In this document: positions 54,322-59,633 of the stretch, in pieces | Position numbering within the stretch: position 1 is the first letter of the stretch | Layout: each line of letters begins with the position of its first letter | NCBI GenBank assembly: GCA_003164035.1 | Contig: PLRS01000092.1 | Coordinates: 62,001 to 126,000 of the forward strand | DNA from: Bryobacterales bacterium | GTDB taxonomy: Bacteria > Acidobacteriota > Terriglobia > Bryobacterales > Bryobacteraceae | DNA length: 64,000 nucleotides | Reading direction: 5' to 3' | The notes under the pieces: generated by a model | Seen by the model: the letters and a program-made list of their open reading frames with translations, nothing else | The model's database searches: none | Told to the model about the DNA's origin: nothing | Position numbers and translations under genes: made by a program

Positions 54322-55035
54322 CTATTGGTGAGTGCCCGGATAGTAGCCCGCGTCACCCGGAGCGGGCGGGTAATCCCGCCCGTACTTATTCTTGTGCGGA
54401 ATGGAAAGGTAGCCGGTCTCGGAAATGGCGATGGGCGGAATCGAAACGCGCCCGCCCGAGACGGCGACGCGCCGGCTCACGCTCTGGAGCGCGGCCTGGG
54501 TGGCGCGTTCGTGAAAGAACGTGAGATCGTACCCGCCTTCCGGCACGCCGCCGATCTCGAAACGCCCGTCCGTCCCGGTGAGGCCGAACAGCGGCGTGTC
54601 CAGCACCGCGATGATCGCGCTCATGCTGGAATGGATGTTGCAGAACACCCGCACGATACCGGGGCGGCTGAAACGGATGCTGCGGTTCGAGCCGGGCGGA
54701 TACAGGCCGACGTCGAAAAGCTGGCCATTGTAGTTGGAAAACGCGTTGTGGAAGATCGGATCGAGATTGGGAAAATCCACCGTCGACCCCACCGTGACCA
54801 TCAGCAGATGGGGCCGGAATTCTTTGTCCTTCTGCACCATGCGCGCGTGCAATGGGGCCGGCGCAGGGGCCGGGCCGGCCGGTTCCAGCCAGACCGCCAC
54901 GCCGGAATAGTCATGATGCTGGCGGACGGCCGGCGCACGTGAATCGACGAGTTCCACGCGCCCCGCCAGCGTGGCCGCGATACCGGGGCCGGCCAGCACG
55001 AAGCTGAGCGCCAATGCCAATGTCCCGTGGCGCAC
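54322..55035 (-). CDS. Cupredoxin-like periplasmic protein (MauL type) with carboxypeptidase-regulatory tail
   Basis: About 237 residues. A signal peptide (LALALSFVLAGPGIAATLAG) precedes a plastocyanin-like domain with blue-copper ligands: His in PIFHNAFSN, and Cys, His and Met in VFCNIHSSMSA. The next segment, TPLFGLTGTDGRFEIGGVPEGGYDLTFFHER, is a carboxypeptidase-regulatory-like beta domain. The start is uncertain: GTG 55035 or a TTG a few codons later; both lie in or at the hairpin repeat of 55027-55140. Function: periplasmic electron carrier or copper binding; the partner is probably the adjacent porin or kinase. Confidence 0.8.
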   Translation of the reverse strand: MRHGTLALALSFVLAGPGIAATLAGRVELVDSRAPAVRQHHDYSGVAVWLEPAGPAPAPAPLHARMVQKDKEFRPHLLMVTVGSTVDFPNLDPIFHNAFSNYNGQLFDVGLYPPGSNRSIRFSRPGIVRVFCNIHSSMSAIIAVLDTPLFGLTGTDGRFEIGGVPEGGYDLTFFHERATQAALQSVSRRVAVSGGRVSIPPIAISETGYLSIPHKNKYGRDYPPAPGDAGYYPGTHQ

Positions 55036-55140
55036 GCACTCGTGCGTGCCGCGTCGAGTCTCTACTCGACGCTTGTGCGCCACGTAGCGGCGAACGTCGG
55101 CAAGAATGCCGACGCTGCACGCACGAGTGCGTGCGCCACG
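55027..55140. repeat. Cluster of four perfect 4-nt-loop hairpins
   Basis: Framed by GTGGCGCA and TGCGCCAC. Inside are: GCACGCA-CTCG-TGCGTGC; CGTCGAGT-CTCT-ACTCGACG; CGTCGGCA-AGAA-TGCCGACG; GCACGCA-CGAG-TGCGTGC. The outer hairpins are inverted copies of each other, so the whole is palindromic. It covers the start of the cupredoxin gene and nearly reaches the porin stop at 55148. Confidence 0.9.
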
Positions 55141-55147
55141 ACAATCC

Positions 55148-56575
55148 TTAAAACAGATACGCGAAAGCCAGGTCATAATGCGGGTTGAGGCGCGTGGGCG
55201 AACCGAGATACGCCGTCTGGACAATAGCCGATTCAAAGCTTACCACCACACCAGAGAGAATCTGGTACATGGCGTTGGCCCCGTAGGACTGGTTCTTCGA
55301 AATCAGTCCGATCTCCAGATCGCGGTTGCGGTCGTCTTCCTGGCCGCCAAACAGGTGAAACGCGAGCCGGCGAGTGGCGCGATATTCGAGTTGCGTCCAA
55401 CCGCCGGCTCCATGTACCGCCCTCGGACCCCCTCGGTATGGCGCCACGATGCCTTGCTGTAAGCCGCCGATCACGGCCAGGTTTTCCCCAAGGAAACCGG
55501 CCCCGGAGAGCGTGAGGTTCCGCGCCACCGGAATGCGCCAATCGAGCGAGGCGATGCGCGACGGCACCGAATACCCCAGCAGGCGCGAGTCGCTGACATG
55601 GAAGCCGGGCGCAAGCTCAAAATCGCCGCTGTCGCCGGAATGTTTCCAGAACACGAACCTGCCTTCGACCGCCGGGCGGCCGGAGAGTGTACTGGAGGAG
55701 TATGCGGCCGGAACGTTGCCGGACTCGCTGGTTTCGAGAATGCCGGCCTGGGCGCGGAGCCCGGCGGAATCGCCGAAGGAAAATCGCTGCTCGACGCGGG
55801 CCTGCGGCCGCCAGAGCCACAGGTTGCCGGCGCCGGTGAGCGGCGAAACGCCGACCTGGGCCAGCGAATCCGGTTCGCGGGGCGCGAGGATGGGTTTGTC
55901 CTGCGCCACCGTAAAAGTGGTATTCGTCCAGCGGAAGTCGAGGTCGGCAACGCGCAAACGGACGAGTTGGCCGAGCGAGTCGCCGGTGCCGCCGAAAAAG
56001 TCGACGTACGCGGCGCCGGAAACTTCGGCCCCGGCCACCCGCTCCGGCGCTTGGAACTTTAGCCCGACGACGGTCTGGCGCAGGCTGGCGCCGTCAAAAC
56101 TCGCGCCGGCCTCGGCCGCGGCCGTGGTGGGGTCCTGCTGGCCGCCCCCGTATTTGCCGTTGAGATACGAATTGAACAGGACCATGCCGGTGAGCTGGAC
56201 CGCCGAATGGTGTTCGGATTCGACGCGTGTCTGGGCCAGGTCCGCAATCCGCTGTTCCGCCACGTCGACTCTCTCGGCAACCGGCGCGGACGCCGGCGCG
56301 GGAGCCGTTGGGGTTGCACCCGCGGAAGCGATCTGTGCGCGCAACGAGCGGATCTCCGACATCAACTCGCGATTCTGTTGCTCCAGCAGGTCGAGGCGCT
56401 GCAGAATACGTTCCAGGTCCGACGGCTGGCTCGACTGCGCCAACAAAACACCGGGCAGACTTAGGGCTAACGCGAGCAGACTCGTGGCGCAGGCGCTCCG
56501 CCTGCAGCGCCGAGATTCGTCTCGGCGCTTCCTCGACCGGAGCGAAAACTCGCCTTTCCGTAACTCACTCGGCAC
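55148..56575 (-). CDS. Outer-membrane porin, DcaP-like
   Basis: About 475 residues. After a leader with a hydrophobic SLLALALSLPGVLLAQ signal comes a short coiled coil (SDLERILQRLDLLEQQNRELMSEIRSLRAQI) typical of DcaP-type trimeric porins, then a long beta-rich barrel ending in a terminal Phe (LAFAYLF), the usual assembly signal. Between the GTG at 56575 and the signal sequence, the frame passes through the hairpin repeat of 56482-56643, adding about 20 basic, Cys-containing residues; no ATG/GTG/TTG lies nearer the hydrophobic stretch. The true start may be atypical. Confidence 0.78.
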   Translation of the reverse strand: MPSELRKGEFSLRSRKRRDESRRCRRSACATSLLALALSLPGVLLAQSSQPSDLERILQRLDLLEQQNRELMSEIRSLRAQIASAGATPTAPAPASAPVAERVDVAEQRIADLAQTRVESEHHSAVQLTGMVLFNSYLNGKYGGGQQDPTTAAAEAGASFDGASLRQTVVGLKFQAPERVAGAEVSGAAYVDFFGGTGDSLGQLVRLRVADLDFRWTNTTFTVAQDKPILAPREPDSLAQVGVSPLTGAGNLWLWRPQARVEQRFSFGDSAGLRAQAGILETSESGNVPAAYSSSTLSGRPAVEGRFVFWKHSGDSGDFELAPGFHVSDSRLLGYSVPSRIASLDWRIPVARNLTLSGAGFLGENLAVIGGLQQGIVAPYRGGPRAVHGAGGWTQLEYRATRRLAFHLFGGQEDDRNRDLEIGLISKNQSYGANAMYQILSGVVVSFESAIVQTAYLGSPTRLNPHYDLAFAYLF

Positions 56576-56643
56576 GCACAACTGAACTGGCGAGGCAGCG
56601 CCGAGACGAATCTCGGCGCTGCAGCCAAAAGTGGCCGCGCCAC
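56482..56643. repeat. Paired-hairpin repeat overlapping the porin gene start
   Basis: Framed by GTGGCGCAGG at 56484 and GCGCCAC ending at 56643. The hairpin AGCGCCGAGA-TTCG-TCTCGGCGCT (about 56506-56529) recurs at about 56598-56621 with loop CGAA, i.e. inverted. Same architecture as 55027-55140 and 32746-32838 but different arms. Confidence 0.88.
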
Positions 56644-56717
56644 GTCCGGCCGGCAATATCCCCGGTGACGTTTGGGGCCAGCCAGTCCATCCCTGCGGCG
56701 TTATTCCTGCGTTAGTG

Positions 56718-57098
56718 CTAAGCTGCATGAATCAATTCCTTGACCTTGCGCCGGATGGCGCTGGGCGAGTAAGGCTTGGGGAAGAACGCGTTCGCGCCGA
56801 GGCTCAGGGCGCGTTCCGAGGAAGCCGGATCCGGATCGCCGCTGACGACGAGGATGGGCAGGCCGGCGAAACGGGGCTGCCCGCGCAACCGCGCGATCAA
56901 CTCGAAGCCGTCCATCGACGGCAGGTGAATATCGGTGATGACCGCCGCGATTTCGGTCGAATCCAGGATGCGGAGCGCCTCTTCGGCGGTGGACGTGTGG
57001 GCCAGGCGCGGTTCGGCGTCCCCGTCGAAGGCGATTTCGAGGGTGGAGATAAAGTGGGCTTCGTCTTCCACCAGAAGTACGGTGCGGCGCGGCGGCAT
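56718..57098 (-). CDS. Single-domain response regulator (CheY-like)
   Basis: 126 residues, a receiver domain with nothing attached: RTVLLVEDEAHFISTLEIAFDGD, the phosphoacceptor in AAVITDIHLPSMDGFEL (Asp), ILVVSGDPDP and the Lys in FFPKPYSPSAI. ATG 57098 is chosen from the domain boundary; the frame upstream is a shadow of the OmpR-type gene. Probably a phosphorelay partner of the adjacent histidine kinase. Confidence 0.88.
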   Translation of the reverse strand: MPPRRTVLLVEDEAHFISTLEIAFDGDAEPRLAHTSTAEEALRILDSTEIAAVITDIHLPSMDGFELIARLRGQPRFAGLPILVVSGDPDPASSERALSLGANAFFPKPYSPSAIRRKVKELIHAA

Positions 57099-58205: not shown

Positions 58206-58561
58206 TCCTCGATACGAATGTTACCGGGAGGGCCGGCCGGAGGTCGTTGGGAATTTGTAAATACGGTGTAAAAAGAATCGACCGGGACTCCAGATGTCAC
58301 CTCGGCATTTTGGGCGGCCAAAGGGAGGACTCGACGTGGGGGGTGGGACAGACGATCGTTTTTCGTCGTCTGTCAGGCCGTTACGGCCTGGCGAGCAGCC
58401 GACAGACCACACAAAACGATGGTCTGTCCCACCCTCGGGCGAGGAACGTCGGCAGGACTGCCCGCGCCACGACGAGGGGCTTCAGCCAACCTCTCGGCGG
58501 CGGCGCTCGCTCAATCGGTTCAGGCCGTAGGCGATCGCCGCGCCGGCCGGCAGCAGCAACC
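58206..58561. other. Intergenic region with a long inverted repeat
   Basis: 356 bases between the divergent winged-helix regulator and the methyltransferase gene... both read leftward, so this is the leader of the regulator cassette and the tail of the methyltransferase unit. It contains the palindromic element of 58342-58433. No gene is seen. Confidence 0.45.
58342..58433. repeat. Imperfect palindrome with internal hairpin
   Basis: GGTGGGACAGACGATCGTTT at the left mirrors AAACGATGGTCTGTCCCACC at the right with one or two mismatches; CAGGCCG-TTA-CGGCCTG lies inside. The outer GTGGGACAG matches the palindrome at 42117. Confidence 0.82.
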
Positions 58562-59302
58562 TCAAGGGCGCTTTCTGAGGACGATCATCGCGTAGCTGCA
58601 GAGGACTGCCGCGGGGTGTGACAGAAGCGTCCGGGACTTCAGGCTCTCGATGCGGTCCAGCAGGGGCGACCAGCGCCGGTAGTAAGTATGGCCGAAGTAG
58701 CCATGGTACTCAATTACGCTGTAGCCCAGAGACTCGAACCGGCGGATCATGCGCTGAGACGGTCCGCGGCTCCAACTGTAATGGGCCCGAAATTTCCCGT
58801 GCTTCTCCTCATCCTCTCTCGGGCATGCGATTTGCAGCAAGAGTTTCGAGAGGGCGCCGGGGGCTATCCAATTGACGACGAATGGCAGAGTATACAGCGT
58901 CGAAAAACAGTGCGCCGAGATTCCGTTCGGCTTCAGCAATGCGCAAATATTAGCGTGATAGCGTTCGCCGTCGCTAACGTGCTCGTTCACCATTCGGCTG
59001 AAGACAAGGTCGAATCTTCCCTGGTAGCCGCCGGGAATGACAGGCGCCGAGACATCGGCTTCCCAGCGTTCAAACACAGGATCGGCCTTCTTTAGCTCTT
59101 CGGAGCTAACATCGTTGGTCGTGTACCTCAAGCCAAGTTGCGATACCTGCTCGGGAGAGAGTGTGGGGTTAGCGCCGGAGCCCACTTCAAGGATATCTTT
59201 ACAGCCATTGCGCTGGATTATATCGACGATCCAGTTCCGTGCTTTGCCCCATCCTGGAAACTCGTCGACTACGTGAAAGAAAGTAGGTGGTGGAGTGGTC
59301 AT
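58562..59302 (-). CDS. Class I SAM-dependent methyltransferase
   Basis: 246 residues. The SAM-binding strand IVDIIQRNGCKDILEVGSGANPTLS is followed by YTTNDVSSEELKKAD, FDLVFSRMVNEHVSDGERYHANICALLKPNG and, near the end, a basic region. It resembles Methyltransf_11/23-type enzymes of polysaccharide loci. Last gene of exopolysaccharide locus II, separated from the transferase gene by REP elements, so it may have its own promoter. Confidence 0.85.
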   Translation of the reverse strand: MTTPPPTFFHVVDEFPGWGKARNWIVDIIQRNGCKDILEVGSGANPTLSPEQVSQLGLRYTTNDVSSEELKKADPVFERWEADVSAPVIPGGYQGRFDLVFSRMVNEHVSDGERYHANICALLKPNGISAHCFSTLYTLPFVVNWIAPGALSKLLLQIACPREDEEKHGKFRAHYSWSRGPSQRMIRRFESLGYSVIEYHGYFGHTYYRRWSPLLDRIESLKSRTLLSHPAAVLCSYAMIVLRKRP

Positions 59303-59388
59303 TATCAGCTCGGCTGCGTCGGTATCTTCTTCCGGGGCGCCGCGGATGTCCCGTTAACACTCGCTTTCGCAATTATGGTGACGTATCG

Positions 59389-59460
59389 GGCAACCGCTCC
59401 CTGGCGGTCGCGGCTCGGTTTCTCGTGTTTCCGAGCCGCGACCGTCAGGGAGCGGTTGCC
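59389..59460. repeat. REP-like palindrome, copy 4
   Basis: GGCAACCGCTCCCTGGCGGT at the left and ACCGTCAGGGAGCGGTTGCC at the right, with CGCGGCTCGG and CCGAGCCGCG inside; nearly perfect. Confidence 0.92.
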
Positions 59461-59538
59461 AGGAAATGCCCAGCGCTCCGACCCCAACATTCGATACCGA
59501 TGCCAGCCCGCTCGGATTTACGATAAAGCCACGGGTCA

Positions 59539-59566
59539 GAGCCGCGACTGTCAAGGAGCGGTTGCC
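59539..59566. repeat. REP half-element, copy 5
   Basis: Only the right arm is present: GAGCCGCGACTGTCAAGGAG, then CGGTTGCC, with two changes from the family sequence. It lies 78 bases after copy 4. Confidence 0.8.
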
Positions 59567-59633
59567 TGCGAATAGTCACAGAGCCCTCGAATTCGTGTCC
59601 TGGCGTCAACCAACTCTGTGGCCGTTACGTGGC

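Follow-up and report, generated by a model that had tools for sequence, protein, structure and literature searches.

Two REPIN-like repeats in the genome of a Bryobacterales bacterium appear, from comparison with its relatives, to be read in frame within the signal-peptide codons of a porin-like gene and of a neighboring cupredoxin-like gene. We consider it probable that these REPINs were inserted just past the upstream stop codon, inside the overlapping reading frame of the downstream gene, where they lengthened the n-region of the signal peptide, and that out-of-frame events were purged. The window, which is the whole stretch of DNA analysed, comprises 64,000 nt of this genome (8.0 Mb, 169 contigs), and the relatives used for comparison belong to the Bryobacterales, Acidobacteriota.

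The original prediction had placed two hairpin clusters of one design at 55027-56643, a range that holds both elements and the porin gene between them, and had assigned them to the starts of the cupredoxin and porin genes. Both points held: each element lies across the start of the gene named, and the two share a plan that is repeated elsewhere in the genome. As shown in Table 1, a GTGGCGC tag is followed by a palindromic hairpin, a second hairpin with a 4-nt loop and a spacer, after which the same parts come in reverse. Element 1 begins 7 nt beyond the porin stop. Folded as single strands, elements 1 and 2 are far more stable than dinucleotide shuffles (z = -11.0 and -9.6, respectively), and half-unit A of element 1, folded as DNA, gave z = -3.8. 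Searches with Rfam covariance models returned nothing at the gathering score, and the sub-threshold microRNA-like hairpin matches were taken as chance. Other repeats were also present in the window. A further inverted repeat (GGTGGGACAGACGATCG...) at 58341-58434 and a hairpin of another REP family at 58439-58473 lie near regulator genes, and pieces related to them adjoin the repeat copy L048; the repeats at 59287-59575 translate as PLPDGRGSE / SRDRQGAVAR, a type seen as in-frame inserts in the relatives L267 and L270.

Table 1. Features of the porin and cupredoxin-like region (window coordinates)
Feature	Position	Strand	Description
Cupredoxin-like gene	54322..55176	-	284 aa counted from the native ATG
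Hydrophobic core of cupredoxin-like signal peptide	54973..55020	-	LALALSFVLAGPGIAA; adjoins the repeat
Element 1	55026..55140	.	Family-1 REPIN-like inverted doublet, 115 bp, within the codons of the cupredoxin-like gene
Element 1, half-unit A	55026..55072	+	Tag CGTGGCGC, palindrome GCACGCACTCGTGCGTGC, hairpin GCGTCGAGT-CTCT-ACTCGACGC
Element 1, half-unit B	55095..55140	-	Inverted; tag and palindrome as in half-unit A; hairpin CGTCGGCA-TTCT-TGCCGACG
Porin-like gene	55148..56728	-	526 aa counted from the native ATG (56726-56728); stop codon 55148-55150
Native ATG of cupredoxin-like gene	55174..55176	-	26 nt ahead of the porin stop; conserved in relatives
Porin signal-peptide core	56435..56482	-	SLLALALSLPGVLLAQ; adjoins element 2
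Element 2	about 56483..56644	.	Family-2 REPIN-like inverted doublet within the porin codons
Element 2, half-unit A	56483..56530	+	Tag CGTGGCGC, hairpin GCAGGCG-CTC-CGCCTGC, hairpin AGCGCCGAGA-TTCG-TCTCGGCGCT
Element 2, half-unit B	56595..56644	-	Inverted
Single-copy stretch	56645..56725	-	About 27 codons separating element 2 from the porin ATG; not present in the nearest relative, G036
Response regulator gene	56718..57098	-	Stop at 56718-56720, overlapping the porin start

The two families were then surveyed across the genome. Family 1 occupies at least about 40 places and family 2 at least about 30 full or partial places, both counts being lower bounds from the part of the candidates that was scored. 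The GTGGCGC tag was found at the 5' end of 36 of 40 family-1 copies and at the 3' end of 31 of 40. A GT[AG]G motif 5' of the hairpin, which the literature definition of REPs admits (PMC6006769), is thus present as GTGG, and the elements consist of two inverted REP palindromes with a spacer. The copies are numerous, dispersed and mostly extragenic. Those of family 1 lie between unidirectional (18), convergent (13) or divergent (4) genes, and 31 of 47 flanking gene 3' ends are within 60 nt of a copy. The lengths of intergenic family-1 copies fall into all three classes modulo 3, so the keeping of frame described below is a matter of selection at the site, not a property of the element. Outer inverted arms (GAAATAACCATGCCA...TGGCATGGTTATTTC) enclose at least 16 of 40 family-1 copies (L024, L026-L029, L031-L033 and others) as well as one copy of family 2 (L061), which looks as though different REPINs were housed in a larger palindromic element.

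Y1 transposase matches numbered 12 in the genome. An intact RAYT-type ORF with the motif HVHLLIR (L015) is bracketed by two inverted family-1 units, each of which matches half-unit A over 47/47 nt at 94%; its product scored above the cut-off of Pfam Y1_Tnp, and reached E 6.7e-19 with NCBIfam REP_Tyr_transpos, below the cut-off of that model. For family 2, the search for a bracketed RAYT yielded only a decayed gene (L020), with a family-2 unit on one side. This gene is interrupted by TAG and carries a family-1 half-unit on one flank and, on the other, a family-2 half-unit that is the same 3' half as half-unit B of element 2. By plan, tag, copy number and placement, elements 1 and 2 are REPINs, non-autonomous inverted REP doublets, of two families that are new but of a known kind, and judging by these sequences they were most likely copied by the RAYT transposases of the genome.

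The nearest relative with both genes (G036, also L118, isolate bog_406), whose proteins are about 80% identical, is empty at the orthologous sites of both elements, which fits insertion. Element 1 is missing there in G036/L069 and L118. In G036 the cupredoxin-like gene starts at an ATG inside the last codons of the porin gene (MTLLSRICFSAAMACPGFAAT), the porin ATG overlaps the response regulator stop (MHPKLRVFFLVLVPGILAAQ), and both starts are without a repeat. Family 1 is abundant in the G036 genome, at other places than these two sites. No target-site duplication was visible against the G036 sites, where the flanks have diverged.

The ATGs at 55176 and 56728 in the window are the same ATGs as in G036. 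It had been claimed that the first plausible start codon of each gene lies inside or beyond the repeat; this was contradicted, since both native ATGs lie upstream of the repeats and are conserved in relatives. The accompanying claim, that the repeat contributes to the leader or the translated N-terminus, stands for the N-terminus if the conserved ATG is used. When the relatives were inspected for the same sequence as normal coding DNA, they were found to be without the repeat.

The cupredoxin-like ORF is open from the ATG at 55176 through element 1 to the signal-peptide core. Measured from the porin stop, the spacing is 169 nt in the window versus 25 nt in G036, a difference of 144 and a multiple of three. 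If the native ATG is used, residues about 13-50 are encoded by the repeat, and the translated element ends in an Arg/His-rich stretch (...TRRGTHECVRH) just before the hydrophobic core. Element 1 would therefore be in frame within the signal-peptide codons, with a longer n-region and with the core and mature protein intact. The similarity of this protein to type-1 copper proteins is weak, and neither it nor the porin-like protein matched a Pfam or NCBIfam family above cut-off.

The situation of element 2 is comparable. The response regulator stop follows the first base of the porin ATG at a distance of 8 nt, and the porin ORF is open from the ATG at 56728 through element 2 to its core. The spacing between response regulator and porin is 277 nt versus 43 nt in G036, and the difference of 234 is again a multiple of three. 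Element 2 thus appears to be in frame within the porin signal-peptide codons, where it would lengthen the n-region and leave the core and mature protein intact. The genome search found no second copy of the stretch at 56645-56725. Where the response regulator and porin genes meet, 131 of 133 ORFs continue open past the upstream stop. The long cases, namely the window, L125, L270, L255 and L273, are in frame; in L121 the porin insert is upstream of the start.

The porin-cupredoxin junction was compared in 149 distinct loci, with the window among them. The ATG 26 nt ahead of the porin stop is conserved in 144/149. The tyrosine codon that overlaps it is TAT in 143 of 147 cases compared with 336 of 842 elsewhere near porin ends, which indicates that the ATG itself is under selection. 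Between the porin stop and the mature protein, the spacing is 10 to 199 nt in all loci but one, and every locus with the conserved ATG and a spacing below 400 nt (143/143) is in frame without a stop. All 11 loci with a spacing of at least 96 nt are in frame (chance 3^-11 = 6e-6), as are 10 of 10 when the window is left out (chance 3^-10, about 2e-5); both values assume that the inserts, which differ in sequence, are independent events. The insert in L125 is a REPIN, found in at least 40 copies across that genome, and the one in L188 is a single family-1 unit. Those in L121, L146, L267 and L071 match repeats in the compared sequences, L132 is weakly repeated in its own genome, and L161, L182 and L264, which are also counted, are without a demonstrated repeat match. 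The misfit is L193, with a spacing of 848 nt, out of frame and with stops. In L193 / L313, this out-of-frame stretch of 848 nt is built of repeated segments from the end of the porin and from the signal peptide. The original prediction had also likened the elements to palindromic insertions that leave the reading frames they enter unbroken, and the empty sites, the kept frame and the repeated in-frame use of this junction bear the likeness out.

The same data weigh on two other explanations. The genes may have been damaged by the insertions and be decaying, with the open frames a matter of luck; the chance of two in-frame events alone is about 1/9, which would allow it. Against this, the downstream ORFs are intact, both window genes show purifying selection relative to G036 (dN/dS about 0.2, which mostly reflects older divergence), and the keeping of frame recurs in other lineages and, within this genome, in a third gene. 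We regard decay as very improbable. Alternatively, translation could start at the GTG of the terminal palindrome of element 1 (GTG CGC CAC, a potential internal start), giving a product 'MRH...' with a short signal peptide (MRHGTLALALSFVLAG...) and leaving the upstream part as untranslated leader. Such a GTG is present, with a good signal-peptide core after it, and many NH2-terminal REPs were judged non-coding by Di Nocera et al. 2013 (PMC3733652). However, such a start would leave the frame with respect to the native ATG unconstrained, whereas it is kept in all 11 long insertions, and the native ATG is itself conserved in 144 of the 149 loci; moreover, the end of the porin element has no start codon, the nearest GTG/TTG being in the spacer. 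A start at the GTG is hence considered unlikely. Both this leader-only reading and decay were ranked low because every comparable junction keeps the frame.

Further copies lie at gene starts elsewhere in the genome. On contig C127 (L021:1475-1588), a family-1 REPIN lies in frame in the signal peptide of an M16 peptidase (Pfam), between MRRGRTGEC and GVNLLVFLFLPFAAWAQT, and the repeat is read in the frame used in the cupredoxin-like gene. The repeat lies behind an ATGA overlap of the gene's start with the upstream stop, and an ATG or GTG start is kept at this overlap in more than 20 relatives. At L056:1566-1649, the GTG start (MRHIKSDLALLNCSQLVTLAG) of an amidohydrolase gene appears to come from the end of a family-1 half-unit. 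This gene, which has no other plausible start, probably uses the repeat-borne GTG, and it speaks for the GTG reading of element 1.

In the explanation we prefer, in-frame insertion behind the upstream stop, copies made by a RAYT would enter a short way past the upstream stop codon, as is usual for REPs. Because the genes overlap and the downstream ATG precedes that stop, the insertion would land within the downstream ORF, separating the n-region from the hydrophobic core. With few in-frame stops and an Arg/His-rich end, the repeat would make the n-region longer yet still positively charged. A length change divisible by three would allow translation from the native ATG through the repeat; this use of the ATG in the present strain, like the RAYT-driven movement, is what we infer. 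Signal peptidase should then cut off the whole extension, and we likewise infer that the extended protein is exported and cleaved. Out-of-frame insertions at the junction would destroy the gene and be purged, so that only in-frame ones survive. Several observations go against this account, however. N-regions of about 50 residues (cupredoxin-like) or 80 residues (porin) are unusual, the GTG at the end of element 1 could act as an internal start, and the about 27 inserted non-repeat porin codons point to more history at that site than one REPIN insertion. The out-of-frame junction of L193, the upstream position of the porin insert in L121, the four of ten other long inserts that go without a clear repeat match (L132, L161, L182 and L264) and the lack of a visible target-site duplication also count against it.

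REPs elsewhere act on mRNA. The hairpins may accordingly have been retained here as 3'-end protection of the upstream mRNA or as a throttle on the downstream gene, the coding effect being incidental, which is compatible with in-frame insertion. Very stable hairpins stand 7 nt past the porin stop, and the copies prefer gene 3' ends. On the other hand, there is no sign that the repeats are maintained at the two sites, as the sister genome is without both elements and each lineage carries a different repeat or none, and regulation alone leaves the keeping of frame unexplained. We are inclined to doubt that such a role exists here, though less firmly than we doubt a start at the GTG. As a tentative extension of in-frame insertion, stop/start overlaps upstream of signal peptides could be a recurrent safe harbour for REPINs, in which the repeats serve as disposable n-region, and may tune secretion or translation of envelope proteins, with different repeats taken up at the same site in different lineages.

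The translation of REPs at gene starts had been left open, with most cases in several species judged non-coding in the 2013 survey. Here the true start is pinned down by the overlap with the upstream stop, and the relatives provide a natural experiment, which points to read-through of the repeats. The comparison also suggests a reason for the survival of bacteria with such insertions: what is translated lies in a segment expected to be cleaved. Mobile repeats would thereby have a simple route to lengthen signal peptides.

Among known systems, the elements resemble REPINs/BIMEs with RAYT (TnpA-REP) in the inverted pair of GT[AG]G-tagged palindromes, the high copy number, the position near gene 3' ends and the transposase bracketed by inverted units (PMC3116915, PMC8266576, PMC6006769). 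They differ in that the half-units have two successive hairpins and a GTGG tag, and that some copies lie in signal-peptide codons. MITEs are likewise short non-autonomous inverted-repeat elements, whereas here no target-site duplication was seen and the link is to a single-strand HUH (Y1) transposase. Rickettsia palindromic elements (RPEs) are palindromic, 100-150 bp long and read through in frame (PMC10969869), and in-frame insertion in coding sequence was also found here; the host is unrelated, however, the element is different judging by its architecture, and RPEs enter unrelated proteins, while the present segment is expected to be cleaved. The closest precedent within genes is the intragenic GTAG/CGTC REPs of Di Nocera et al. 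2013, in which REP dimers lie in ORFs, including NH2-terminal positions, and recB of two Xanthomonas species carries REPs at about one site (PMC3733652). That survey, which judged most NH2-terminal REPs in several species to be non-coding, stressed DNA-repair genes (PMC3733652), whereas in the present cases the gene overlap fixes the true start and the genes hit code for exported proteins. In-frame REPs (PMC3733652) and Rickettsia palindromic elements (PMC10969869) are thus already established. A literature search returned nothing specific on REPs in signal peptides or at places where genes overlap, which is no proof of absence. What appears to be new, as far as the papers searched indicate, is the recurrent in-frame use of overlapping junctions ahead of signal peptides.
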